Positions 25,814 to 43,911 of a stretch of DNA of 64,000 nucleotides are shown in pieces. The first letter of the stretch is position 1, and every line of letters starts with the position of its first letter. The notes below the pieces were generated by a model. It worked only from the letters and a program-made list of their open reading frames with translations. It did not search any database and was not told the DNA's origin. The position numbers were made by a program, and so were the translations under genes. This stretch comes from Plicaturopsis crispa FD-325 SS-3 (lineage: Eukaryota > Basidiomycota > Agaricomycetes > Amylocorticiales > Amylocorticiaceae): NCBI GenBank assembly GCA_000827205.1, contig KN832555.1, positions 2,819,011-2,883,010 on the forward strand, read 5' to 3'.

Positions 25814-26157
25814 ACGTTTTATTTGCGGTGGTGAAGATGTCGATGATCGCGGCGTGGTGCACGCAGATCCAGAGTTGTATTGTCCTGACAGGCGGCTGAA
25901 ATAGGGTTACCAGATAATGTACAACAGATACAAGTTCAAGAGTCCGAGACGGTGCGATTGTAGAAGACTGAGATTTTGGGCTGCCAAAGATCTGCGGAGG
26001 CGATGGGCAAAGTCATTTTATTTTCATCACGTGGCGTTTATCTACGCGGCGCGCGCTGAACTTGAAGTCGACGCGCGAGTCTTTGCTGACTCCCTACAGC
26101 ATACTTTGACGAGACTATTACACGTAGACAGTAGACACAGAGACTGCAGACTCAAGA

Positions 26158-27685
26158 TCAGGGAAGATTCGGGATCGCTGTAATTTTTTTTGAGAACATC
26201 GAACGGGGGACTGCAAAGTGTCAACTCACCGGCAGCGGTCCAGAGAGCTTGATCCGTCCCATCCGCATTCGGAGTCAGGGTCAGTGTGTAAGTCGTATCG
26301 AATGCGCCAGCAGCCCACAAGCTCCATCCAACGATAGTGTCCGAGTTTTCCTTGATGTATGCCAATTCGTCCCCAAGGCTGATTCTACGTCAGGTCCCCC
26401 TATACTGCGAGACAACTCGAGAAACACTTACTCGGTCTCGCACGAGGCAACATTTCCTCCGCCGGTCTCACTGAGTATGGCTTGGCGGTTACCGTTCTCC
26501 TTGAGGAACGAGACAAGAGTGGTGAGGACATCGACGTTGCTCTGGTGTACCGCACATTCATCAGTGCGTTTACTTGTAAAGTAAGTAGGGTGTCCTTACT
26601 GTCACACATTCGGCGTGAGTCCCACTGTTGTCGCTGTCGAGATACTTGTGCACTGATACAATTGGTCATCAATATAGGCGCAGAACACATTATGAGATGT
26701 GTTCCTTACCGTCGAAGATCAACTTGCTCGTGTCACCGAGAGGGTCGGTGACCTTGACAAGGTAAGGGCCCGCCTCGGTCGGGAAGGCCTGTGCACTAGC
26801 ATAGCTAGATCCGGGCAGCAAAAGATAATTATCTGCTCCTGCGGCACGGATGGCGTTGACAGCTGCCTGGACAGAGTCGGCCCAGTCGGACACCGAGTTC
26901 AAGTCATGAGGCTCGTTCATGAGACCGAACTAGACATACACATAGAGTGAGTACGCCTCGCCCCGTATGAACGATAATATACGGGCACTTACGATAACAT
27001 GGTCCTGGCTAGCATATTTCGTGGCGAGCTGAGTCCAGAGACTAGCGTACTGGTCATTCGTAGGGCCCCCCTGACCGATGATCCCCCCATTCCAGCGGGC
27101 ATAGTTGTGCTATCAGCGGTCTGTCAGTGTACATTGCCCACAGACGGATTCGCATAGCACTTACCACGTCGATTATAACATAGGGGCTACCCGGAGCGGA
27201 CAACGCGGACTGCACCGTGCTATCATACTCCGAGAGGAATCCCTGGTCGATATCGCCGCCGAGGGTGGGCGTCATGAGCTGCCACGCTGAACGAAAACAT
27301 CCATAGTAAGCATGCGACGCATCAGGACCGCGTTAATATAGTCAATGTGCGGCTTACCAAACGCTGCAACAAACGTTTGTCAGGTTCAGGCATGACAGCG
27401 TAGTCGGAAGGAATGCTTACGGATTCTAAACAGATTGGCGCCTTGCGACGCAAAGTGTTGATATTGTGCCACAGGGGGGTTAGCCGGAGGACCAACAAAA
27501 GATCCGTCAGTAGCCTGTTACGTGGGCGTTCAACGACACATCGAGATATGAAGCAACGGGCATGCACGTACAACAGAGAAATCATAGCCTGCGGTATTAA
27601 CGCCTCCGAGGTAAGGAAGGGAAGCTCCCCGCACCAGAGCGGCGGCAGCGACGAGGATGCTAAGAGACGCGATTGTTTTGGCCAT
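26158..27685 (-). CDS. GH5 endo-beta-1,4-glucanase without CBM1 (copy 1)
   Basis: This is a secreted cellulase that cleaves internal beta-1,4 bonds of cellulose, probably subfamily GH5_5. The start gives MAKTIASLSILVAAAALVRG, a signal peptide, followed directly by SLPYLGGVNTAGYDFSV; there is no CBM1 or linker. Catalytic signatures are the acid/base NEP in FGLMNEPHDLN and the nucleophile in ILSETGGGNVASCE; HKYLDSDNSGTHAECV and WAAGAFDTTY also match the family. About ten small introns divide the gene; the last exon adds AIPNLP and TGA at 26158. A TATA-like CATATAAAG lies at 27745..27753. It is a close paralogue of the gene at 41396..43272: in one 70-residue exon I count two differences. The mature enzyme would act outside the cell. 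Confidence 0.92.
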
Positions 27686-28446
27686 GCTGTACAGTTGTTC
27701 AGGACGGGGTTCCCAGCTGAGGTTCCGTAGAGACAGTTGGACCACTTTATATGCTGACCTCGCGCGATGTCTCGGAAAGAGTAGACGCTGTCGGGGCATC
27801 TACGGAAGCTGGCGGAAGCATACAGCGTCGTCTCGTTGCTCTTGCGTCGCTATGGCCCGTTTGAACAATATCTGTAACCGCCGAGATTTAACCCAACCTA
27901 AGCCTAACCGCTGATGTTCGTAAGAACAGTAGAAAATAGAAAACAGTAGGCAGATGAGCGAGCATACATGAAATCCCGTCGAACAGGCGGCGCCCAGCAC
28001 GACGCGCTGAGAAACCAAATATGTCGGAAAATTTGCCCATTCTTCTGCAGATGACCGGATCGTGTTTTTCCGACGAGGCCGCCGAAGACGTCTTCGTGAT
28101 TTGACGAGGAATCGCTCCGACCGTTACAGGAAGTAGATAGAGGTCGAGGAGAAGAGTCGATCGCGCGCACAATTGCAGTCACGCGCCCGCGTCGTGTCGC
28201 GGCGCGTCGGAATAAACCCGGTTTTATATGGGCTTGATGCTCCTCATGAGAAGAACCTGACACTGACTGCGCGTCATACAGGATCCTTAAGCTGGCAGCT
28301 GCACAATGAGACGATCTACAAGAGCCGGCGGCTTTATTACAAGAGAAGGGCACGCACGGATACTATAGTATAGATATATACAGGGAACAGATCGATCTAT
28401 CGTCCACAAGCTGGGCAGCACAACGGCCATCGCACTATGTACCTCC
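27686..28446 (-). promoter_or_regulatory. Upstream region of GH5 copy 1 with blocks conserved in copy 2
   Basis: No gene is supported here. Besides the TATA box, three blocks match the upstream region of GH5 copy 2: CGGGGCATCTACGGAAGCTGG (27792..27812), TTTTTCCGACGA (28065..28076), and CAGTCACGCGC with GTCGGAATAAACCCGG (28176..28221). Their distances from the start codon are within a few bases to about 25 bases of those in copy 2. The left end doubles as the 3' flank of the HNH-like gene. Confidence 0.6.
27745..27753 (-). promoter_or_regulatory. TATA-like box of GH5 copy 1
   Basis: The minus strand reads CATATAAAG about 60 bp before the ATG at 27685. GH5 copy 2 has a matching GTATATAAC at a similar distance. 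Confidence 0.5.
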
Positions 28447-30143
28447 CTAGACAGCATATTTAGTCCGTTTTATGGCCCTCGGTTCCCGCTCATCTCCACT
28501 CACAGTCTCAAGGGCCCTGCGCTTGCCGCATGGTGGCGTAGGCCGCAGTTTATGCGGAAGCGATGGCAGTAGCGGCTTCGCCAGGACAGGTGCGGCGGCG
28601 GCGGGCGGAGGTTGCGAGTCCAGTACGGCTAAAGTACTCGGGGGTAGAGTGAGGCATGCGTCGAAGATAGAGGCTGGCATGCAGCAAGCGGTGAGCATGG
28701 TAGCGGGTTATTACAAATGGAAAGACATACGCAATCGTTCCCTCGAATCATCATATTGCAGAGCATCGGGTGCATCATCATCCGCCAGATAAAACTCGTA
28801 GTTATCCGGTATGTCCTCGTCCTCGTCATTCGTGTTCGGCAACAAGTCAACCTCGAGGGCGTTGATTGCGTGGTCGCATGCCCATATCCAGTGCCAGACG
28901 GTTGTTGTCCAGGGCACTTGTTGGTCCTTGTAGCTTTCCCTATGCGCCCTAAGTGTTCTCGACGTAAGGCGGGCCTCATTGGACCCGTCCGGCCCATTGT
29001 CGGGAAACCTGGGAGGGGGAGCCGCACGTCTGTGTTTGGTGACCTGGCTAGATGATATTGAGATGGCGCCCATTCTACTATGTGACTGGCAGCTATGCGG
29101 CGCCACGTGTTGAAGTGACCACTTCTTGTAAAGCTCGAGCACAATGAACGTGAGCTCGTAAGCATTTACGCGAGGGCCTTCGTCACAGACATAGAGCCTT
29201 TCAATGGCATCGTGAAAATCGGGGAGGGCCAATTGGAGCTTCAGGCCAGCGTTCCATATGACAAAGCAGGGATGGATATGCGATTTGAGTAGCCCAAGCC
29301 TCCGGTATGGGTACCTGTGCGTGACGCCTTGGTCGGAGGTGGTTGCATCTTGTGGCTCTCGGTGTATCGCACGTCGGGACATGGTCTCCTTCGCCATCAG
29401 AGTATACTCGAACGTCCCGTTCTGAACCGTTGGGCGGGTGAGATAATGAAGTCCTGAAACCAAGTATATGAACGTACCGGTACATGTGGAAAATCGGGGC
29501 CAACAGGCATCCGCCCGTTCTGATCGTAGGTCCTGATCACCTCCTCGGAAGGAAGAAGAAGCCACTCTCCCGAATCGAATAAACGGTGCAGCTGTCTGAC
29601 AACTACGCAGGAAGACAATATCAGAATGACAAGTGCAGCGAAAGGGCACATGAGAACTCGCGAGGAAAGACGTTGTATCGAGTGTCAGTGTTCAAAGTTT
29701 GATGTTCCAGGTTCCAGGAGTACTCGAGGCGCTCAAGCTATGACAGATAGGACAGTCAGCAATGCCAGGTACGAGGTGTCTCCTCAACATACAGTAGAGG
29801 GATCCAAATCGCGGGGCACACAATAAGCGAAATGGAGATCGACTGATTTGTTGGTGACGAGGCAACGCGGGCCGTTGGGATCCAGTTTATTCAAGCGCGC
29901 GACAACGCTCGGGGGAACGTAAGCTTCAATGGTAGTAGCCTCAGTTGAGGTGGTAGATTCAGTGGACTCGAATTGAGAAGACTGGGAGGGGAGTGAAGTT
30001 GTGCTGCGTGCCCGTCGAGGTGTCGTCGCGGTGAGAACTCGCGACGGCGGGCTGTCGCCGGAGTGGAGTGGAGTGGCATTGGAAGGATACGAGGACTGTA
30101 CATGTGGCGCGCGGATATGCGGTCGATAGTCTGAAGGTGCCAT
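28447..30143 (-). CDS. HNH-like domain protein, tandem copy A
   Basis: The start MAPSDYRPHIRAPHVQSSYP leads to a Ser/Thr-rich N-terminus, then the HNH_2-like module: CLVTNKSVDLHFAYCVPRDL, LEYSWNLEPQTLNTDTRYNV and LHRLFDSGEWLLLPSEEV. These motifs are shared with mushroom proteins annotated as HNH nuclease domain proteins. The remainder (FRTLGLLKSHIHP-type segments, VTKHRRAAPPPR with a basic cluster, TVWHWIWACDHAINALEVDL) is specific to this family. The last intron joins DDSRERL to SIFDACLTLPPSTLAVLDS, and the C-terminus has a Pro/Ala stretch and basic clusters (GKRRALE, AIKRTK) that look like a nuclear signal. The expected His of the first HNH position is Tyr. Function is unknown. The downstream GH5 gene is on the same strand. 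Confidence 0.7.
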
Positions 30144-30605
30144 GCATATGTGAACTTGAAGTTGCAAGTCAATTTCGGGTCGATTGAGACACGCCTTCCA
30201 AAAGGGGAAGGAAGTAACGTGATCGTGACACGCCGCGAGCACGCTCGGGTCCCGGTGATGATGAGGATGTCTTCCTGCCACCATCCCCGACCCCTGGCTC
30301 GACGAGGTCAACTCGCGTCTGAAGAGGAGACACGCAGATGCCACTGCTACCGTAGGGGCGACGGATGCAGGACAAATTTGACGACCGTGACCGTTTATAA
30401 TTTCCTGATTTCTTGGACAGGCGCAAGCTCTGCTTGTGTCCTCGTTCAGAATGTATCAACTATTCAGGATGTACTCACTGTATCGAATGACCACACGCGT
30501 TGTCTGCTCATGCATGTCCCAATACTTTTTTAGCAGGGCTGCCGCCGCACTGGTATTATTACATGCAATCGGCCGCCACGGTCTCTACTAGTACTCACGA
30601 TCTCA
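30144..30605 (-). other. Spacer between HNH-like copies A and B
   Basis: About 460 bp. The part next to copy A (GAAGTTGCAAGTCAAT then GGGTCGATTGAGAC on the plus strand near 30157) is nearly identical to the region before copy C at about 34332, so the duplicated unit includes promoter or leader sequence. Nothing else was recognised. Confidence 0.5.
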
Positions 30606-32246
30606 TTAGCCTCGTGTTTTCTGCATAGTAGCAATGTCGTGGCCAGAGCCGGGTTTGCGATTTGCCAGTAAGCCGGGACTGGGAGTGTCGTTCATGCGTC
30701 CTAAACGGCTAAAACTTTGCTCGAGGGCCGAGGCCGGTGTCAAGTAGCGTCCGAAATGGACACTGTCAATGAGCGGCCGGAGATTAGATAGAGTGACAGC
30801 ATTGCTAGTGGTGAAAAAAACATACACAATTGTTTCCGCGGACCTTGGATATGTACAGGATCGGACGCGTCGTCATCCGTTGAATCAAGCTGGGAGCTAT
30901 CTCGTATCCCGTCGTCCTCATCGATCGTGTCAGGCAACGTGTCCAAGTCCACCTCGAAGGCGTTGAGGGCATGCTCGCAAGACCATATCCAATGCCAGAC
31001 AGTTGCAGTCCAGGGCATTTGTTGGTCCCTGCAACTCTCCTTATGCGCTCTGAGCAGTCGCGAAGTAAGACGAGGCTCATGGGACCCATCCTGTCCTTCG
31101 TGGAGAGACCGAGGAGGGGGAGCCGCACGTCTGCGTTTGGTGACCTGGCTAGATGATAACGAGGGCGCGTCCAGCGCATCATGATTGATCACGAACGGAG
31201 GCTGCACGGTGCGCAGTGTCTCCGTATGAAGAGACCACCGCTTGTAAAGCACGGAGACCAGGAGGACAAGCTCGTAAGACAATAAGCGGCGGTGCTCATC
31301 GTCGGCATATAGCCTACTGGTGGCCTGGTTGAAATGGAAGAGGCCCATAGAGAGTTTCTTGCCGGCATTCCATATAGCAAAACGAGGATGTATATGTGAC
31401 TTGAGGACTCCTAATGTCTGAAAAGGGTATTTGTGAACAATGGCTTGGTCGGAGGCTGCCGCACCGCGCTGTGCTCGAAGTATGGTGCGCTGTTCCATCG
31501 TCGTCTTCGCAATCAAAGTATATTCGAACAATCCATTCTATACCGCTGACAAATGAGATCTGGTATTCTGGGACGAGGTATAGATACGTACCGGTACAAG
31601 CGGAAAATCGGTGCCAATGGGCATTTTCCTGTCTTTGAGGTAGAATCTGATTACATCCTCAGAAGGAAAAAGAAACCAGTCATTGGAATTAAACAGACGA
31701 TGAAGCTGTCGGTCGACTGCGTAATAGGATGAGCCTGATCCACATGAGCATGGCAGGGGAACTCACGAGGAAAGACATTGTATCGAGTGTCAGTATTCAA
31801 TGTTTGAGGCTCTAGATTCCAAGAGTACTCCAGCCGCGCAAGCTGTCGCAAACAGTCAGTGAAGCTGAATGCAACAGATCTAGTCATTAACATACGATAG
31901 AGGGGTCCAAGTCGCGCGGCACACAGTAGGCGAAATCGAGGTCAACAGACTTGTTAGTGACAAGACAACGCAGGCCGTCTGCGTCTAGTCTTCGCAGGCG
32001 CGCAACGACGCTTGGGGGAACGAAGTCTTCGATGGTAGACACTTGAGTTGTTGTGGTACATTCGGCGCACTCTGACTGCGACAACTGAGAAGGCGGTGGT
32101 GTTGGGTTTCGCGCCCGTCGCGGTGGCGTTGCTGTGAGAACTCGCGGTGGGGGTAGCGGGCTGTCCGCGGAGAAGTTTTGTGAAGCCTGGAATGTGTAGG
32201 ATGGCCGCGGTGCTTGGATGTGTAGTTGGCAGTCAGACAGTGCCAT
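30606..32246 (-). CDS. HNH-like domain protein, tandem copy B (more diverged)
   Basis: Same layout as copy A: start MALSDCQLHIQAPRPSYTF, a Pro/Ser/Thr-rich segment with RRARNPTPPPSQ, CLVTNKSVDLDFAYCVPRDL, RLEYSWNLEPQTLNTDTRYN, LHRLFNSNDW, FQTLGVLKSHIHPRFAIWNA, VTKRRRAAPPPRS and TATVWHWIWSCEHALNAFEV. The HRLF motif has Asn where the others have Asp. After the last intron the C-terminus (HFGRYLTPASALEQSFSRLG and onward to a stop at 30606) does not resemble the A and C tails, so the final exon is uncertain. Introns lie near 31890..31850, 31760..31715 and 31590..31540. Same unknown role as its neighbours. Confidence 0.66.
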
Positions 32247-32746
32247 GGGCTGGTCCGGGGACGGTCGGGGAGATGTTGCGTGGAAACTTGAAACATGAAG
32301 ATCGATGACGTATTTGACCGCCTACCCCCATCCCCTACTCCTGGCCCTTCGAGCGGGCACCCTGCAGATGTGTCGAACATAGGTGGAAAGCGGCGGAAGG
32401 GGAAGTCTGTCGCCTGAGGGCGAGGTCGAGAGGTGCGCGGTCGGCGCCGGTAACGGAGTACTGCATACCAATCGGACAGGCACGTTGCTTTGTCTAGGAT
32501 GCGTTATTTATCTTCACTGTCCCGTACCAATGCACACACACATCGACCACTTACTCACCGTGTTTTCAATGAATAGTATGCCGTTGACCTTTCCATGCAC
32601 ACGACTTGTGTTCCGCCACGAAAGCTAATTAAACGACTACCAAACGCTATCTGCTACTTACATGACTTTACCGAGTATCTGGATTCCACTCATTCTCGTT
32701 CATCTCCCCACGCTTGCCGCATGGTGACATCGCCGCCAATCCCAGT
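32247..32746 (-). other. Spacer between HNH-like copies B and C
   Basis: About 500 bp. The end next to copy C is homologous to the last coding exon of copy A (for example CACCATGCGGCAAGCG on the minus strand near 32712..32727), now beyond the copy C stop. The remainder looks like ordinary spacer. Confidence 0.5.
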
Positions 32747-34309
32747 TTATGCGCATGCGAGGACATTGGCGGTTTTGCGAGTACAGGTGCGGCGGCGGGC
32801 GGAGTCCAGTAAGGCTAAAGTACTCGGGGGCAGAGTGAGGCATGCGTCGAAGATAGATGCTGGCATGCAGCAAGCGGTGAGCATGGTAGTGGGTTATTGC
32901 AAATGAAAAGACATACACAATCGTTCCCTCGAATCATTATATTGCAGAGCATCGGGTGCATCATCATCCGCCAGATAAAACTCGTAGTTATCTGGTATGT
33001 CCTCGTCCTCGTCAATCATGTTCGGCAACGAGTCAACCTCGAGGGCGTTGATTGCGTGGTTGCATGCCCATATCCAATGCCAGACGGTTGTCACCCAAGG
33101 TACGTGTTGGTCTTTGAAGCTATCCTTGTGGGCTTTGAGCGTTCTCGAATTCAACCGAGGCCCGTCATCGCCGGGAATTCGAGGAGGAGGAGCTGCTCGT
33201 CTGCGTCGGGTGACTCGGCTGGACGATATCGACGGTATGGCGACATTGTGCAACTGCGAGTCGGGTAGTGGCTCGCTGTGAAGCGACCATCGCTGGTGAA
33301 GCTCAGATACCAGGAACTCTAGCTCAAGGGCTACCAACCGGCGGTTTTCGTCACCTGCATACAACTTGTTCGAGCCCCGGCTAAACTGATACAAGCCCAT
33401 CGAAAGTTTCTTGCCGGCGTTCCATATCACAAAGCAGGGATTGATATGTGACTTGATTAATCCCAACGTCCGGAAGGGGTAGGTGTGATCGACGTGCTGG
33501 TCGGAGGCGGCTGCGTCGAGTTGTGCTCGACGTATAGTATTTTGCGCCATAGTTTTCTTCGCTATGAGAGTATACTCGTACGTTCCGTTCTGCCCGTTGA
33601 GAAATGAGAACTTACGTCTCGGAATAAGTAGGGCATATGGACGAACCGGTGCGTGTGGGAAATTGGGGCCAATGGTCATTTTCCCATCCTTAATGAAGCT
33701 CCGAATCACCTCTTCGGAAGGGAAAAGAAGCCACTCCTCAGAATCAAATAGACGATGAAGCTGTTTGTCAACTAGGGAACGGCAAAGGCGTAAGAATGGT
33801 TTGTGCGAGCGAGCGTAGCAATCCGAACTCACGAGGAAAGACGTTATAGCGAGTGTCGGTATTCAACGTTTGGGGCTCCAAGTTCCAGGAGTACTCAAGA
33901 CGCTGAAGCTATTGCAGTTTGGACAGTCAGCGATGCCGTGTACGATGTTGAATATCTGACATACGGTTGAGGGATCCAGATTGCGGGGTACACAATAGGC
34001 GAAATCGAGATCAACAGACTTGTTGGTGACGAGACAACGAGGGCCGTCGGGGTCTAGCTTCTTCAAGCGCGCGACAACGCTCGGGGGGACGTACGCTCCA
34101 ACGGTAGTAGCCTCAGTTGAAGTGGTAGATTCAGTGGACTCGGACTGAGAAGACTGGGAGGGGAGTGAAGTTGTGCTGCGCGCTCGTCGAGGTGTCGTTG
34201 GGGTGAGGACTCGCGACGGCGGGCTGTCGCCGGAGTGGAGTGGAGTGGCATTGGAAGGATACGAGGACTGCGGCGCGCAGATATGGGGTCGATAATCTGA
34301 AGGTGCCAT
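32747..34309 (-). CDS. HNH-like domain protein, tandem copy C
   Basis: Closest to copy A: start MAPSDYRPHICAPQSSYPSN, CLVTNKSVDLDFAYCVPRNL, RLEYSWNLEPQTLNTDTRYN, LHRLFDSEEWLLFPSEEV, FRTLGLIKSHINPCFVIWNA, VTRRRRAAPPPRI and TTVWHWIWACNHAINALEVD. The last exon begins SIFDACLTLPPSTLALLDS as in copy A, but relative to A a small deletion in the GCC/CCG-rich stretch shifts the frame, giving an Arg/Thr-rich end (RRRTCTRKTANVLACA) with TAA at 32747..32749 and losing the A-type basic tail. The family Tyr replaces His at the first expected HNH position. It is the first of the three in transcription order. Confidence 0.68.
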
Positions 34310-34864
34310 GGCCGGTTTGAAAACTTGAACCTGAAGTTGCAAGTCAATATTGGGTCGATTGAGACGGTGACTGTACCAAGTAGGAGCCCTTCGGAACGAG
34401 AGGTGGCTAAATATGACGCAACTATAGCTGTTCAATTTAGCTTGCAGTTTTCGATTCCACCGACTCGGAGACCTACCTGCGCTCTTACTGGAAAGTCATG
34501 GGTTCCGGCGTACACTCTCTCTTGTCGTCACCAATGTCGAGATTTTCGCGCAAGCCACCGCAAGCGCAGAAGTACTAGTTCAGAATCTTTGAGCGTGGTA
34601 GAAGAGAAACGAGCAGGCAGGTATAAGTATAGAAGACTATATGGGCCTTGTCGACGTTAAATAACAATTTTATGTGAACGTTGATTGAAGTCCAAGCTCA
34701 AGTGTAGTCGCGTCGCGTCGCCTACCGCAAATGGACATGTACGTAACGTGACAAGTAGACCGCGTTCGCGCAGGTTTGCAGTCGCCACGAAAAGTACACT
34801 GACTTAATATTTAAATAAGTGGAATAACCCACAGGCTCAGTGCGATGGAATGAATTTGACAGTC
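34310..34864 (-). other. Upstream region of HNH-like copy C and 3' flank of methyltransferase
   Basis: About 555 bp with no supported gene. The first 60 bp after the copy C start match the copy A upstream sequence. An AT-rich stretch lies near 34800..34835. Confidence 0.45.
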
Positions 34865-36176
34865 TTAGATCCTACGAGCATGGACAGTGTACAAGATCGA
34901 CACCATTCCATCTGTTTCCCTCATCCCCCTCAAAAATCCCTCAACCAACTCATTCACCCCGTCCTCCGGCCACTCGGCCTGCCTAAGCAGTGGCCTCACC
35001 GCCTCTGCATACCCAACCAGCATGTCGCGGTAAGCTATCCCAATCTCCCTCTGCTCCAGATTCGGCATCCAGTCACCGACAGGCACGTAGTAGCACTGCG
35101 CCGTCACGTCGCGGAAAAGGCCGGACTGGTGCAGCCAGTCGGGCACAACGCCTGCGACGCGTCCAAGACCGCGCGTGAGACGGAGCGCTTCGTCGATCGC
35201 GTCATAAAAGCGGTGGATCTCCTGAGGGATGTCGGTAGCCAGGTGCAGATCGGGGTGAAAGGCCAGGAAACGGCCCCATTCGTACGAGAGGAACAGTCCC
35301 CCGGCACGCAAGATGCGCGCGACCTCGTCCACCAAGCGAGGGTAGTCGCGAATCTGACCGGTCATAAAATAGAAGCATGGTGCATGAATATTCCTCCGAC
35401 TGAGATCCAAAAAATGTACATACCGCCAAGGAAACGCCGCAGGCGTGCACGAGATCAACATGCCCACTGCGCCACCGCAACGGCTGGTTGCAGTCGTGCA
35501 GCTCGAAGCGTGCATTGGTAGGCGGATACTGCGATGCGATAGGAACTACAACGGGGAGCAGTTATGAGGCAAGATATGATATCTGGAAACATAGTAGCTA
35601 CACACCAATGTCAAGTCCCCTGAATCGAACATGGTCGAATTCCCTCGCCATCTCTAAAACCCTAAAGTTACACAAAAATACAGACCGGGAGCTTGAGCAG
35701 CTGCAGGGATTCTAGGAAATGTGATCGCACCATTTGCCAGTTCCTGTACAGAGGTCGACAGCGAGCCTTTGCCGCCCTGGGATCGGAGCCAACACCTCGC
35801 GAACGGGGCCGATGTAGTTCGCACCGATGACCTGGCAGATCACGTCATGCTGCACATCGAGCCGCTGTAAAGGCAATCAAGCAATCAAAACCTAATGCGA
35901 ATGAAGAGTGGGGGTCGATAAGGGACGAACCCTTTGCTCCGATCCGTCGACTGGCAGGGGATACGGCAAGCCTATACCATGAGAATGGAAGAGACGACCG
36001 TCCCGCTCCTCGAAGTGAGTTACGAAATCCTCAGGTCGCCGGAGTTCTATTAGACCCGCCGTGTCAGATTCGTCGTCGGAGGCCTCGATATGACGACCTG
36101 GATCCTCGGATTCCCCCTCGTCTTCGGAGCCGGGGTCATACGCCTGGTTGCGAATTCCGTTGAATTCTCTCGCCAT
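34865..36176 (-). CDS. Class I SAM-dependent methyltransferase
   Basis: A fungal methyltransferase of the LaeA-like or general secondary-metabolite type. The start at 36176 gives MAREFNGIRNQAYDPGSEDE and an acidic N-terminus. The next exon reads HDVICQVIGANYIGPVREVL, then motif I AVDLCTGTGKWV, EMAREFDHVRFRGLDIVPIA (Asp of motif II), FELHDCNQPLRW and DLVHACGVSLA (motif IV region). The C-terminal exon carries IRDYPRLVDEVARILRAGG and LFLSYEWGRFLAF, ending at 34865. Introns lie near 35877..35928, 35660..35740, 35515..35610 and 35360..35424. It carries no targeting signal. Substrate is unknown. No polyketide or peptide synthase lies beside it, so cluster membership is not supported. Confidence 0.85.
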
Positions 36177-36983
36177 CTGTGGACTGAGGGCGATAGATTT
36201 AGTACATTGACGGGGGGCGGGCCTACTCGAAACCTTGCTTTATACGGCGCTCGGAGTCAAACACCTAAAAACACGGAGCAGAAGGTCCGCATCGGCTGAT
36301 CCCCGCGAAGCTGTAGGATATGGAAGGCAGGCCCTTCAAAACCTGCGGGGCTTCATGTTTGTATTTGTGGGTGCTACAGCATTAACCGCATACGGAATCT
36401 GCATGGGCACGGGTGACGGCAGTAAGCAGCCGTGAGGGTGAGCAAGTACTGCAGTTACAATCCAGATCCAATGAACGTACTGCATAGCTGTAGCCGGACC
36501 CTAGTAGCTTCGCTAGAGCCATCGATTGATGAGGGATAGAAGAGCGAACGCGCACAGGTGTTCAGGCGTGTGAATGAGATGAAAGAGAACGTATCAGTGG
36601 GTCCCGATCCCTTATGGTAAAACATGTTCCTGTCACGCCAAGGCTGCCGTAGACTGCTTGAATAACAAGGCAGATCCGCCGCGATTGTACGTTGTCCAAG
36701 CATTCAGAGCAATAGGTATATTGTCGCAATTGCGATTGCGCTAGCACTGAACGAAAAACATGCAGCAGCAGCAGTGGTAAGAGAAAGAAGTTCATGACTT
36801 TGTTGTGGGCGCTGGTGGGCGCACGGTGGCGCACGGTGGCGGTGGGCGTGGCCACCGACCCACGTGATATAGCCCCTATCCACCAGTCGCGTCGATTCCG
36901 TCCTCGCGTCTTGACTCTTGCGCTCTCCCATCATCAACTACAGCTTCAACTCAAGGCTTTTTACTTGAGCTATGCGCAAAAAC
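36177..36983. other. Divergent promoter region between methyltransferase and POL4
   Basis: About 800 bp separating two outward-facing genes. It includes a GC-rich imperfect tandem repeat (GGTGGGCGCACGGTGGCGCA, about 36810..36850) and a short minus-strand frame listed separately as a possible secreted protein. Otherwise nothing recognisable. Confidence 0.45.
36562..36795 (-). CDS. Possible small secreted Cys-containing protein
   Basis: A 77-codon frame starts MNFFLLPLLLLHVFRSVLAQ, which has the form of a secretory signal peptide ending in A-Q, and continues SQLRQYTYCSECLDNVQSRR with four cysteines in total. No homologue is recognised. It lies in the POL4 promoter region and may be chance; an upstream in-frame ATG exists at 36855. 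Small secreted proteins of this size are common in mushrooms, but there is no independent support. Confidence 0.25.
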   Translation of the reverse strand: MNFFLLPLLLLHVFRSVLAQSQLRQYTYCSECLDNVQSRRICLVIQAVYGSLGVTGTCFTIRDRDPLIRSLSSHSHA

Positions 36984-39900
36984 ATGGACGACATCGAAGA
37001 TTATTATGCAGAACAGCAGAAGATACTTGACATCCCAGAAGAAGATATCACCGAATACCTCAACCGACGGTCGAGGGCGAGCAATAGGACGTGCGTTATT
37101 CACCCATCTTGTTGGATGAGAGCTTCGCTAACCATAGCCGGTCTCTCCACAAAAGAATCCGTCTGAACTGCAGTGAAGACCCTGTATCACACGCTGACTT
37201 TGGAATCCCGCAGCACGACCATTCAGCCCCTCACTCGGTCCTTCTTGTTCCCGCAGCATCGGAACCCTCTGACAGGTAAGACTTCCGCCATATCTATCTA
37301 AATTCAAAGCGGCGTACTTACCTACATACGCATCTCAGTGCTAAGCGCAAGCTAAAAACACACACAGACAATGCCTGGCCCAATCCCAAAAGACAGAAAT
37401 ACATTGACGACGAGGATGCCGAGCTTGCATCACCGCAATCGAAAGGAGGCAGATCATCCTCCCGCCAGCCACACACTATACACGCGTGAGTCTTTGTCTG
37501 CTTATGCTGTATAAACTTCGTACATTGCTCATGTTCGGCCGAAGACCCGGCGGTAGTGCGCTTGCAAATGGTGCGGTAAATGCTTCACCAATGAATCTCC
37601 ACGCGCAGACATTCCTCCTCGATCCACTACGGAATCAGTCTGCGCAGCTCCCAGTCCCAATGGATGAAGAGATCTCCGAGTTCGAGGATCCTAGTCGCGA
37701 GAAGCGTACGATCCAGGGTGACCTATCGTCTGTGAAGGCCCCGTCGTCTCCAATCGGCCCTTCTACCAGTGTCGCGCAGACTAAAATAGCTGCACCTGAT
37801 ACACGAGCCAACGCGAGGTCAGAAACGCTTGATCCACAAGTTACATCTTTGCAGGCGGCACCTTCGATCTCCATCATATCGAGCCACGCCTCCACGGATC
37901 GACGCCGCCGCGACGAAGTTATCAAAACCACGCCCGTGAATGCTCTTCCCGGGCGAAACACAAGTAACGTTACTACACCAGGATCTCCTGCACGTGGTGC
38001 CTCTCGCAAAAACGTCCAGTTGGCTGCCAAGCCCGTGGCTGGCCCTTCCTCCAAGGTCGCGAAGAAACTCAAACCTAAATCCACGCCTGTCGCCGCACCC
38101 CCTGTAGAACCAGCCAAGAAGCAGAAGCAGAAGGGAAAGACAAAGAAAGACAAGCAGCTCATCACACCTTTTGATTACGCGCAGTCCTTATTGGCTAAAC
38201 AGACGAGACCGAAGGTCGTACAGTTCTTGAAGGGAAAGCACATATACTATGTTGGCGGAGATATGCAATATGCTGGAGAGAGAACACGAGGGAGAATGGA
38301 TCTCGTATGTTTCACAACTACCACTCCTGCATGATACTGACTTGTTCCCGAAGATCGTAAAGCACGGTGCCACACTGCAAGCAACCTACGACCCAAGTAC
38401 CGTCACTCACATTGTGACGGACGCTACTCCGACCCCCACGCTCCGGGCACTCGGTCTCAAGTCCTTATATGATATACCTCATCATGTCCCCACTGTTACA
38501 TGGCGTTGGATTCTGTCAGGGCTTGGAAAGGCGCAGAGAATGAAGGTCGTCGAGGGTCAGGAGGAGCCAGAGGTGAAGATGGCATTTGAGTTCGAGCATG
38601 CGGCCTTCGCGCAGCGGATTGATGCTGGGCCGGGTTGGGGTGGCCCAGGCACAGAGCCTGCGCCTCTTGTCTGGCCCGTGGGGCCAGACGCCAGAACGAG
38701 GCCGAAACCCAAACCTAACGCAAAATCAGCGGTGAAGGAGCCTAGCAAAGCGAGCGGGAGTGACGAGTTCAGCCATATCTCGTTCGTCCTGTCATTTCGT
38801 TTACTATTTCGGCGTTCAGCTAATGTCATTCGGAGCAGCGAGTTTACCCAGGAGAAACCAGTCCCAGCGGCTAAGAATGCGCAGGCTGCGGGATCGGATG
38901 CTCGAGGAAACACCCGAGACGAAGCGCCCGTGCAACTAGCGACTATAAGCCACGCCTCAGACAGCTCTGAGCCCATAACGCCAACAAGTGACCCATTGGC
39001 GGAATTTTACGCGCAGGCTACCGCCGATCATGAAGCCACTGTGAGTGAGCTTCACTGGCTTGATTCTGAATAAGACTGACATTTATGCACATTGCAGTGG
39101 CTTCAAAGTGAAGCATCAGAGCCCGATATCAACCCCTCTGGCAACGACGACGACGACGAAACCGATGACGAGGAAGAGTTTGTCGCAAAGGTTCCTCTAC
39201 AGAAACGGGTGCGATGCTTTTCTTCTAATGGCTCGCCATCGACTAATGTGTTGTAGGGTTTCACTTGTGATAACAAGGAAATCCAGCGAAGCGGGTGTCC
39301 CAACCAGGACATTGTCGAGAAGGTAACACATTCAACATTTAGCTGAGGCGTCCGAGACTCACATATAAATCAACCAGCTAACGGAGCTCATGGAACTACA
39401 CAAGGCCAAATCCAGTGCGGAGGATCACTGGCGAGTGTACAGCTATTCAAAAGGTGCGTCCTTTTTGCTCTCGTTCGAAAACTCCATGAACCAAAGGACT
39501 CCATGTTAGGTATTCGGGCGCTCAAGAATTATCCGCAACGCATCAAGTCATTCAACCAGGCCCGTTCTATACGTGGGATTGGCGAGAAGACAGCGGCAAA
39601 GGTATGCATCAATTCCGTCAGCCCACAATGCGAGTGCTCGTGACTTACACATACCAGATTATGGAAATCCTACAAACGGGTTCTCTCCGGCGCATTGGCT
39701 ACGAGCGCACGGAAGACGTTGAAGCGACTCGAATTTTTCAGGGTATATACGGCGTTGGTGCGTTGCTATTCCCTGGATACTTCCCTTCGTACTACGATCT
39801 TGCCATGACGCGTGTATTAATCCATTGGTGATACAGGGCGACAAATCGCATATCAATGGTATGCAAGTGGGTGTCGGACGCTCGACGATGTCAAAGCGCG

Positions 39901-41033
39901 TAAAGGCGGGATCACGCTCACGTCGCAGCAAGAAATCGGTGTTCGCTTTTACGATGGTATGCTGTTTTTTATACCGTCTTTCCCTGTAAATTTGAACACA
40001 CTCTCATCATAGACATCAATGAACGAATGCCGAGGAGCGAAGCTCAAGCCCTCTTTGATGCGATCAAGCCTATAGGTCTGTATCCTTCATTCGTTGTTTT
40101 GGCCATCGCTGAGCGGGCATCGTGCAGCGCTCAAAATCGACCCAAAATTATTCATAGAAATAATGGGTAGTTTCAGGAGGCATGTCCCCGTTTTGTTATG
40201 GCTTTACTATAATTAATTTTTTTTATCCATTGACGCTACAGGGGAAAGAAGGATTGCGGGGATATCGACATCATGATTACACGACCGACAGACGATGGGA
40301 AGACACACGCTGGTATGCCCTCGTCGTTGGCTCGTTTCTCTTTTATTTCTTACGGAGTCTTCTTGTCAAGGCGTCCTCCCTGAGCTCTTGTCAAGGCTAC
40401 GCCGCGCAGGTATCCTCACTGAGGATCTCAACCTACCGGAGGACCCGTACGACCTCGAAAATATCTACCGCGGGCTTTGCCGCTTGCCGCCAGGCTCGGA
40501 CGGCCCCCGTAAACGGCGTCGCATCGATTTCTTGACCGTACCCTGGCATTCACGCGGGGCCGCTTTGTTGTATTACACAGTGCGTCTGCAAATTATATCC
40601 TGCCAATATAAATTGAAGCTAACATGGTCTCTGCTTCACAGGGCGACGACATTGTACGCTCACTACTCGGTTATCCTTTGCTCCTGGTTTCCTGTGTTGC
40701 TCACGTTGGGATGTAGTTCAATCGCGCCATGCGCCTCAAAGCTAGCACACTCGGCTATTCACTAAACCAACGCGGACTATTTGGCGGTGTCATACGCGAT
40801 CCAAGGAACAGGACCATTAAGCTGTCTACAGGTACGCATTTTCAGCTATATATCGATCCAGCCATAATCAATGATGGTTTTTTTTTGCCTTGCAGGAACA
40901 TTAGTAGCTAGCGAAACGGAGCAGGAGATTTTCAAGATCCTTGGTACATTGTCTCTTATTATCCCTGTGAAACTGTACTTATCTTTACGCAGGCGTTCCT
41001 TGGCAGGAGCCCCATGAGAGGGTGCGGGGATGA
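36984..41033 (+). CDS. POL4: DNA polymerase X family, Pol4/DNA polymerase lambda
   Basis: A repair polymerase for end joining and base excision gap filling. It starts MDDIEDYYAEQQKILDIPEE (an in-frame ATG lies 12 nt upstream), followed by a long disordered region. A BRCT domain (LKGKHIYYVGGDMQYAGERT to VPTVTWRWILSGLGKA) lies at about 38220..38535. The lyase/8-kDa region follows (LTELMELHKAKSSAEDHWRV, IRALKNYPQRIKSFNQARSI with the RGIGEKTAAK helix-hairpin-helix), then fingers/palm: EIMGSFRRG joined to KKDCGDIDIMITRP (two catalytic Asp), RRIDFLTVPW (third Asp), TGDDIFNRAMRLKASTLGYS and LNQRGLFGGVI. It ends VPWQEPHERVRG with TGA at 41031..41033. Some ten short introns; that at 40180..40241 uses a GC donor. 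All three metal-binding aspartates are present. Confidence 0.93.
40180..40241 (+). other. POL4: GC-AG intron inside the POL4 catalytic motif
   Basis: The exon ends TTC AGG AG and is followed by GCATGTCC. The acceptor CTACAG precedes GGGAAAGAAG. Only this junction gives G-S-F-R-R-G-K-K-D-C-G-D-I-D, the invariant Pol X motif; the GT four bases inside would shift the frame. The donor AG/GCATGT resembles the known GC-AG consensus. Confidence 0.8.
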
Positions 41034-41395
41034 GTCGCCTCGGTCGCACGCGATGGGGCCGACCTGGTGTATATATTATGACTCGCGGCAATCGCTACTA
41101 GGTAATAGCCAGTACGCGGCGCGCGCGAGGTTGGGTTTTATCTGTCGGTAGACATCTGAGTATGCATGTTTGTATCCTTATTACAGTGGCGCTTGCATAT
41201 CGACTTGTTGATGAACGGAGCACGACGATGGATTGCATATACATTTTTAGCATCAACATTTGCAGTGCTAGCTGATACCTTCAAGTCGACCTTTATCCAT
41301 CGTCGGCTCCCTCGTTTCCCAGATTCTTCGCCGAAACATTTTACACTATGCAGACGCGATCATCTCCCCAGACGACAATTTTAGCCCAAACAAAA
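41034..41395. other. Convergent 3' region between POL4 and GH5 copy 2
   Basis: About 360 bp between two facing stop codons. No gene, repeat or RNA was recognised; it should hold the two polyadenylation regions. Confidence 0.5.
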
Positions 41396-43272
41396 TCAAG
41401 GAAGGTTTGGCACGGCTGGTTGAGAGCTTGGTGAGTAAGGGGCGGCAGATTGACAAGTGATTTACTTACCAGCAGCAGTCCAGAGAGGCTGGTCAGTGCC
41501 GTTCGCGTTCGGAGTCAGGGTGAGGATGTAAGTGGTGTCGAATGCACCGGCAGCCCACAAACTCCAGCCAACAATAGTATCGGAGTTTTCTTTGATGTAC
41601 GCTAGTTCCTGCCCGAGACTGCATTGCCGTTAGTAACTGGGCGACATCAGCTTTACGCTGGACTTACTCAGTCTCGCATGACGCAACGTTTCCTCCACCA
41701 GTTTCACTGAGGATGGCCTGCCGGTTGCCATTTGACTTGAGGAACGAAACGAGCGTGGTGAGGACATCGACATTGTTCTGTTTCGCCGCATGTCAGATGT
41801 TACGTTCCTCGGGCACGTATCGAGAATACACATACCGTCACACATTCTGCATGAGTACCACTGTTGTCACTGTCGAGATACTTGTGGACTGTGGTAATTT
41901 GTTGAGGAAATGCGCAGAGAAATAGTGGGAGGCAATTTACCGTCGAAGATCAGCTTGCTCGTGTCGCCGAGGGGGTCGGTGACTTTGACGAGATAAGGAC
42001 CGGCCTCAGTCGGGAATGCCTGAGCGCTAGCATAGCTAGATCCTGGCAACAAGAGGAAGTTGTCGGCACCGGCAGCACGAATGGCATTCACTGCCGCCTG
42101 GACCGAGTCTGCCCAGTCGGGAACAGAGTTCAAGTCGTGGGGCTCGTTCATCAGGCCAAACTAAGAGGAATTCGTGAGATCATGTCAAGGAAGGCGCTTC
42201 AGTGCTCACGATGACGTGGTCTTGGCTGGCATATTTGGCGGCGAGCTGAGTCCAGAGACTAGTGTACTGATCGTTCGTAGGGCCGCCTTGACCAATGATT
42301 TCACCGTTCCAGCGAGCATAGTTGTGCTATGGGTATATTTTGAGCATAAACCACTGCAAGATTTCCATGTGAACATACGAGATCAATGATGACATAGGGG
42401 CTGCTCGAGGCGGACAAAGCTGCCTGGACAGTGGTGTCGTATATCTCAAAAAATGTCTCGTTGATAGAGCCGCCAAGGGTAGGCGTCATAAGCTGCCAGG
42501 CTACAGGAGAAAAGTGATTAATATGCGATTCAACTATAACGTCAGACAAGACCAGCTTACCGAACGCTGTGAGAGAAATATTTGAGGCGTTGTTACTATT
42601 TACTGAAACTTATAGATGTACTTACGGACTCTAAACAGATTGGCACCTTGCGAGCCAAAGTGTTCATATTGCGCCGGCGGAGGGCTGACCGGGGGACCCG
42701 TGAAAGACCCGTCAGTAGCCTTGAGATAATGTTCGGTAAATTTGTTACATGCGAAGAGTGATCGCACTTACAACGGAGAAATCATAACCTGCGGTGTTGA
42801 CCCCACCAAGATAGGGAAGTGTAGCTCCCGTCGAAGAAGGGACAGCCGCGCTCGAGCTTGCGGTTGAACTTACAGGTAAACACTGCGAGTAATCTGTGAC
42901 ATATCCTGTGTTGAGGAAACGCGATAGATTGGGGAGGGTCTGGCTTACAGTCATTGGCGACAACGCAGGAGCTCCCCGCGACACAGGTCGTACTGCCAGC
43001 TAAGTCAAATGCGTATGTCAGATAGTGCTGCTAACTGAAGGGAGATCAGCTTACTCCAGCCGATGCCGCCACCTGGAAGGTGAATGAAGCATTGCGTTAG
43101 ATTAACACTATCGAAGGCGAATCAATGTCTCACACTGGGAGTATACCTATACTCCGAGTTAGTTTTGCCTGGAATGAGCCATGGTGGGATAATTACTCAC
43201 GCCTTGCTGAGCTCGAGCTGCTGCTGCAGCAACGAGGACGCCGAGAGCTCTTGTCACAGTATATTTTGTCAT
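41396..43272 (-). CDS. GH5 endo-beta-1,4-glucanase with N-terminal CBM1 (copy 2)
   Basis: A secreted cellulase with a cellulose-binding module. The start MTKYTVTRALGVLVAAAAARAQQG gives a signal peptide. The CBM1 is built from exon 43134..43146 (13 nt), exon 43055..43072 (18 nt), exon 42949..42999 and the next, reading VYSQCGGIGWTGSTTC then VAGSSCVVANDYYSQCLP, with all four Cys; the first aromatic is Tyr instead of the common Trp. A Ser/Thr/Ala linker (VSSTASSSAAVPSSTGAT) leads to LPYLGGVNTAGYDFSV and the GH5 domain: GLMNEPHDLN acid/base and SETGGGNVASCE nucleophile. The last exon encodes VPNLP, TGA at 41396..41398. Introns occur at matching places to copy 1. A TATA-like box lies about 50 bp upstream of the ATG. 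Confidence 0.93.
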
Positions 43273-43911
43273 GTCGGTACAGAAGGTTCGAATGATTTGC
43301 ACCGTATCATCCTGCCGTGTTATATACCAGCTCGCAGATGAGGCTAGAGCAGCGCCCTGTTCCCCTCATAGTAAGCCAGCGGGGCATTCACGGAAGCTGG
43401 TGTAAATTGAGCGATGATTGTCAATGCGTTCAGAGCAGTAGCGCCGAAGTTCACCCCCAGACATCCTCATCGTGCCAAAGATATTATCGAGTGAGCTGGC
43501 GTGATTGCCATCGAACGCAAAAATGTATGTGCCCCGGTGCATGCGAGCATTGGGCAGGTCGCGCTGAGATACTTGGACAAGCTCGGACAAGGATAGTCAA
43601 TAGACGGTGTCGGTCGAATCACCCAGCGGCGTTGACATAGAAAGAGGCATCGATTTTTCCGACGAAGATGCAGGAAATAAATATAAAGGCTGGTGGTCCT
43701 GGTCAAGTCCTGGTGGTGGTAGGAGAAAGAGGACCATGACAGTCACGCGCGACGCGACTGGCACCGTGTCGGAATAAAGCCGGCTCTGTATTTTTGTCCT
43801 TGGTCTGCTCTTGGTTCTTGCCTCTACCGCTTTACTTGCCGCTCTTCTAGAGTCTCTGCTCGCTGAACAGCGCACTCAAACCTACGCTGAAGTATCTGGA
43901 TTTGATCATAT
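43273..43911. promoter_or_regulatory. Divergent promoter region of GH5 copy 2 and LYR gene
   Basis: It holds the TATA-like GTTATATAC (plus strand, 43319..43327), and CGGGGCATTCACGGAAGCTGG at 43380..43400, TTTTTCCGACGA at 43654..43665, CAGTCACGCGC at 43740..43750 and GTCGGAATAAAGCCGG at 43768..43783. These correspond to blocks before GH5 copy 1. The first block contains GCGGGG, which fits the CreA/Mig1 consensus SYGGRG when the preceding G is counted; copy 1 lacks that exact match. No gene is supported. Confidence 0.6.

Follow-up and report, generated by a model that had tools for sequence, protein, structure and literature searches.

Collinear blocks retained upstream of two old GH5 endoglucanase paralogues contain candidate sites for a Zn2Cys6 activator

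Four short blocks (11-21 bp) lie in the same order and at nearly equal distances from the ATG upstream of two GH5 endoglucanase paralogues, in a window of 64,000 nucleotides (the whole stretch of DNA that was analysed). The DNA around these blocks has diverged in a neutral-like manner. We hypothesize that both promoters go back to a single ancestral promoter of a GH5 endoglucanase gene, and that an old duplication was followed by the drift of nearly everything except a few transcription-factor sites under purifying selection. Judging from the sequence, the two genes would be controlled through these sites by a Zn2Cys6 activator of the AmyR/Ace3/Roc1 clade, and we put the probability of this whole explanation at roughly 0.6. 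Few transcription factors for the use of plant biomass have been characterised in basidiomycetes. A pair of diverged paralogues serves as a phylogenetic footprint within one genome, naming exact bases and proposing the protein clade that may read them. The question of how cellulases are switched on in such fungi is thereby reduced to a few simple reporter and binding tests. What is new is the presence of CGG-N8-CGG, the spacing listed for AmyR, in two blocks, and of CGGAN(T/A)3, the site listed for ACE3, in one of these and in a third. No report of these blocks was found in a partial collection of the literature that was searched by subject and not by block sequence.

The features on which the analysis is based are the following.

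26158..27685, minus strand: gene 1, GH5 endoglucanase of 334 aa in ten exons (exon model), without CBM1; ATG at 27685
41396..43272, minus strand: gene 2, GH5 endoglucanase paralogue with an N-terminal CBM1 and linker; ATG at 43272
28206..28221, minus strand: block A1 of gene 1, CCGGGTTTATTCCGAC; CGG-N8-CGG and CGGAATAA on the reverse strand
43768..43783, minus strand: block A1 of gene 2, CCGGCTTTATTCCGAC
28176..28186, minus strand: block A2 of gene 1, GCGCGTGACTG
43740..43750, minus strand: block A2 of gene 2, GCGCGTGACTG
28065..28076, minus strand: block B of gene 1, TCGTCGGAAAAA, fitting CGGAN(T/A)3
43654..43665, minus strand: block B of gene 2, TCGTCGGAAAAA, fitting CGGAN(T/A)3
27792..27812, minus strand: block C of gene 1, CCAGCTTCCGTAGATGCCCCG; CGG-N8-CGG on the reverse strand
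43380..43400, minus strand: block C of gene 2, CCAGCTTCCGTGAATGCCCCG; CGG-N8-CGG on the reverse strand
27746..27751, minus strand: TATA-like box of gene 1, at -66 from the ATG
43321..43326, minus strand: TATA-like box of gene 2, at -54 from the ATG

Gene 1 matches the Pfam family Cellulase (PF00150) at 2.4e-55, and among its PDB relatives the closest solved structure is endoglucanase EG-II (4.8e-93). Gene 2 was assigned to GH5 by its PF00150 matches and by its identity to gene 1 at 281 of 312 residues. Its exon model covers the catalytic exons only, and their structure is the same as in gene 1. Between its signal peptide and its catalytic domain, gene 2 carries the CBM1 (42947-43000) and a Ser/Thr-rich linker. 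Gene 1 (region 27572-27685) has neither, so a cellulose-binding module has been lost or gained between the paralogues. The genome assembly comprises 33.2 Mb in 49 contigs. From its matches to AA9, GH7, GH10, GH12 and CBM1 we read the fungus as a probable plant-cell-wall degrader; 11 GH3 matches were also found in the genome. Between the two GH5 genes, at 28500-34400, there is a tandem array of three copies with units of about 2.1 kb, and a Pfam search (E 0.001) of its minus-strand reading frames 28711-29649, 30740-31531 and 32894-33832 gave no matches.

Counted from the ATG (gene 1/gene 2), block A1 (CCGGNTTTATTCCGAC) is at -536/-511, and the exact word that it shares between the 1-kb upstreams, TTTATTCCGAC, at -531/-506. 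Block A2, 17-19 bp away from A1, is at -501/-478 and block B at -391/-393. Block C (CCAGCTTCCGTNNATGCCCCG, with the exact parts CCAGCTTCCGT..ATGCCCCG) is at -127/-128, with the TATA-like box about 40-55 bp downstream. A fifth shared 11-mer is out of register (-389/-805). The initial annotation had described shared elements in the same order at matching distances, and every block was found where it had been placed. For the proximal block the position holds while the letters had to be corrected: on the plus strand it reads CGGGGCATNNACGGAAGCTGG, with its two variable bases inside the CGG-N8-CGG spacer.

Such an arrangement is rare in the controls. The 600-bp upstreams share four 11-mer blocks with offsets within 40 bp; 3,000 Markov draws gave 0.014 on average and never more than 1, and 2,889 random window pairs never more than 2. 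The 8-mer score of the GH5 pair is 7; the Markov maximum was 3 (500 draws), and a score of at least 7 was reached by one of the 2,889 random pairs, which may include repeats of the tandem array. After gapped alignment, identity between the blocks is 0.56-0.64 (0.59-0.62 in shuffled controls). The alignment of the 600-bp upstreams thus consists of discrete blocks and not of even similarity throughout, and the DNA between them, which the initial annotation had called unrelated, aligns no better than shuffled sequence.

The GH5 paralogues are old. Over 312 shared codons dS is 1.2-1.5 by four methods and dN about 0.06, fourfold sites are identical in 69 of 149 cases, and the nucleotide identity of the CDS is 757/939. 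Most introns are near the shuffled level of identity. This old divergence makes even similarity or recent conversion an unlikely source of the blocks and, since most unconstrained DNA keeps no similarity, the persistence of the blocks calls for a cause such as purifying selection. That they were left without any selection, by chance, short-tract gene conversion or mutational cold spots, seems to us highly improbable: four collinear blocks exceed both control maxima, identity between them is at the shuffled level, and, at the identity of fourfold sites, the chance of matching 11 bp at any one given position is 2e-4. What speaks for such an origin is that introns 5 (31/37 aligned bases, 0.84) and 9 (32/44, 0.73) are clearly above the shuffled level, so that similarity has been lost unevenly. 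We think that the blocks were very probably retained selectively, as the initial annotation supposed when it spoke of duplication followed by retention of control sites: similarity at synonymous sites, in most introns and in the DNA between the blocks has fallen to or near background, and in the blocks it has not.

Long forms of the blocks were counted across the genome. Block C occurs exactly at two places, which are the two GH5 genes, and with three mismatches at seven more, against 12 in the reversed control. The A1-A2 core TTCCGAC-N10-30-GCGTGAC is found at six places (seven in the control), block B at seven (three in the control), and the extended A1 form GTCGGAATAAANCCGG, with up to two mismatches, at 38 (30 in the control), two of them exact; each of these three sets includes both GH5 genes. 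The long forms are thus either specific to this pair or near their control counts, which rules out both a dispersed repeat and a verbatim genome-wide cellulase code made of them.

Further information was obtained from short motifs inside the blocks. The reverse-strand sequence of A1 is CGGAATAAANCCGG and that of C is CGGGGCATNNACGG, and both hold CGG-N8-CGG in both genes, at -536/-511 (A1) and -120/-121 (C). For CGGNkCGG with k from 0 to 20, N8 is the sole spacing that recurs at matching places in both promoters. Random sets of four pieces with the lengths of the blocks were drawn 40,000 times: none had CGGN8CGG in two pieces, and 30 had any one direct spacing (k 0-17) common to two pieces. 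Furthermore, A1 (through CGGAATAA) and B (through CGGAAAAA) fit CGGAN(T/A)3 in both genes. A1 can also be read in both genes as the inverted pair CGG-N7-CCG, so its reading is not unique.

According to sources available in excerpt, the listed AmyR site is CGGN8(C/A)GG (PMC5468973) and the listed ACE3 site is CGGAN(T/A)3 (PMC7412840, PMC10991602). AmyR is close to the Ace3/Roc1 clade, and the zinc clusters of Ace3/Roc1 and AmyR are very highly conserved (PMC12997857, in excerpt). The likeness to AmyR, known from Aspergillus amylase genes, consists in CGGN8CGG in A1 and C of both paralogues; here, in contrast, the candidate sites lie upstream of cellulases in a presumed basidiomycete, and A1 allows the second reading. 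The likeness to ACE3 of Trichoderma reesei (cbh1, xyr1, ace3, crt1) consists in the fit of A1 and B and in the enrichment of the pattern upstream of other loci, while the difference lies in the presumed other phylum and in the strongest form in this genome, CGGA[A/T]AAA. Two cellulase activators from agaricomycetes belong to the same protein clade, namely Roc1 in Schizophyllum commune and DsAce3 in Dichomitus squalens (PMC12997857, PMC9746306, both in excerpt). Roc1 ChIP-Seq picked out promoters of lignocellulose genes (the same two sources, in excerpt). DsAce3 is essential for cellulase induction and, according to the excerpted text of its paper, its direct binding to promoters is still to be demonstrated (PMC12997857).

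From these fits, blocks A1, B and C are probably Zn2Cys6-type sites. An Ace3/Roc1 orthologue may be the specific protein that binds them, an assignment to which we give somewhat less than even odds. The blocks could instead be retained control sites for factors outside the AmyR/Ace3/Roc1 clade, either other Zn2Cys6 proteins or unrelated ones, the fit to AmyR and ACE3 sites being incidental, as CGG triplets are common to many of them. In favour of such factors, conservation in A2 and in a large part of block C extends past the CGG triplets, and these stretches match none of the site forms tried; CGGN8CGG is only weakly raised elsewhere, and A1 has its inverted reading. However, two of the four blocks carry the spacing listed for AmyR, which none of the random sets did, and in other upstreams no other of the 64 triplets does as well as the listed ACE3 site. 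We regard binding by factors outside the clade as unlikely and keep the AmyR/Ace3/Roc1 clade as the preferred source of the activator.

Sites of other regulators were also checked. Cre1 sites (SYGGRG) number none in gene 1 (800 bp) and four in gene 2, one of them overlapping block C, and are thus not common to both. The XlnR/XYR1 site GGCTAAA is absent from the 600 bp of both GH5 promoters, and the XlnR-like GGC[A/T]AA occurs once in gene 1 and not in gene 2. No CLR-2 site (CGGN11CGG) is present in the 800 bp of either promoter, nor are the MYB forms [A/G]TTAC[G/C][C/G] and CAACCA, which were taken from the MYB cellulase regulators GlMyb and FfMYB15 (PMC12506057, PMC9578197, both in excerpt). 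By these counts, the tested Cre1, XlnR, CLR-2 and MYB forms are ruled out as content common to both promoters.

The core of the candidate sites is also present upstream of other carbohydrate-enzyme loci. The test set has 21 loci, one stretch per presumed gene: nine AA9, two GH10, two GH12, one GH7, two other GH5 places and five of the seven CBM1 matches. The two CBM1 matches dropped were L013, which is gene 2, and L008, by position part of the second GH10 gene. Upstream here means the 1,500-1,560 bp before the first matched exon and not before a mapped ATG; some stretches include coding DNA, above all where the CBM1 is C-terminal. The background comprised 44 loci retrieved by pattern matching, in which 80 bp at the match were either masked or removed, together with the window minus the two GH5 genes and their promoters. 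In the piece-level test it consisted of 125 pieces, a mix of coding and non-coding DNA and not mapped promoters.

In the 21 upstreams CGGAAAAA, taken from block B, has 5 sites where 0.9 are expected (P 0.002; one of 17 patterns tried). CGGA[A/T]AAA has 11 where 1.7 are expected (P 1.7e-6), a form chosen partly after inspection, its [A/T] having been picked once near-matches to CGGAAAAA were seen. It is the best of the 64 triplets with the same tail (next P 0.007), and its excess is not explained by base composition, since all 64 together give 133 against 129. The downstream halves of the 21 loci hold three sites. Per locus, CGGA[A/T]AAA is found in 10 of 21, against 8 of the 125 background pieces (Fisher 9e-6), and in 8 of the 14 AA9, GH10, GH12 and GH7 loci; the upstream of the GH7 locus has none. 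The listed ACE3 form CGGAN(T/A)3 gives 47 sites against 27.3 (P 3.7e-4) and ranks first of its 64 triplets (next 0.003); all triplets taken together are themselves in slight excess (1,696 against 1,610). This form is found in 19 of the 21 loci and in 80 of the 125 background pieces (P 0.007). CGGN8CGG is weakly raised (27 against 18.9, P 0.047), as is CGGN8(C/A)GG (48 against 35.7, P 0.028), neither P value being corrected for the 21 spacings. In the same upstreams there is no excess of CGG-N7-CCG (9 against 8.3) or of TTCCGAC, the core common to A1 and B (4 against 5.2).

This enrichment could reflect a general feature of promoters or of secreted-enzyme genes, in which case the blocks would be real and silent about a cellulose regulon. 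The mixed nature of the background leaves room for it, as does the site in one of the two hydrophobin upstreams, a promoter control with only two matches. On the other hand, the lack of excess in the 64-triplet sum speaks against a general feature, as does the presence of the site in just 4 of the 55 AT-richer background pieces. We consider this alternative doubtful. The proposal of the initial annotation that the blocks are candidate cis-elements for cellulose induction is plausible and has become more specific: they fit AmyR- and ACE3-type sites and their core is enriched elsewhere. Their long forms do not make up a genome-wide cellulase code.

Under control by an activator of the AmyR/Ace3/Roc1 clade, the protein would bind A1 and C through CGG-N8-CGG, and B and A1 through CGGAN(T/A)3, and would turn on both cellulases together on cellulose or its breakdown products. 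C could then be the proximal site, A1 the distal site and B a single-triplet site between them, whereas A2 would be the site of a putative partner factor. It is tempting to propose, as a tentative extension, that the cellulose switch reads the ascomycete AmyR/ACE3 DNA code (CGG-N8-CGG together with CGGAN(T/A)3). The cis-code of the clade would then have been kept across the ascomycete-basidiomycete split, with the old paralogue pair as its natural footprint, and GCGCGTGACTG by the distal site might mark an obligate partner factor.

Some further observations concern other loci. The neighbouring GH10 genes L086 and L087 (G000:C15:370226-373763) both have CGGATAAA (positions -445 and -462 relative to the matched exon), of which one copy differs from block B by one base. 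Their upstreams also have several words of 10-15 bp in common, and the pair is possibly a second natural footprint. In the upstreams scanned (from L002, L004, L007-L012 and L066-L094) the palindrome CGGNNCCG, one of 63 forms tried, occurs 17 times where 5.9 are expected (P 1.4e-4) and is spread over 11 of the 21 loci. It is absent from both GH5 promoters and could possibly be a second type of site. Finally, the 14-bp word GCGCGCGCCGCGTA (in gene direction) is present downstream of both GH5 genes, at 26043 and 41113; shared words of at least 14 bp were found in 6 of 574 random 1-kb window pairs, repeats included.
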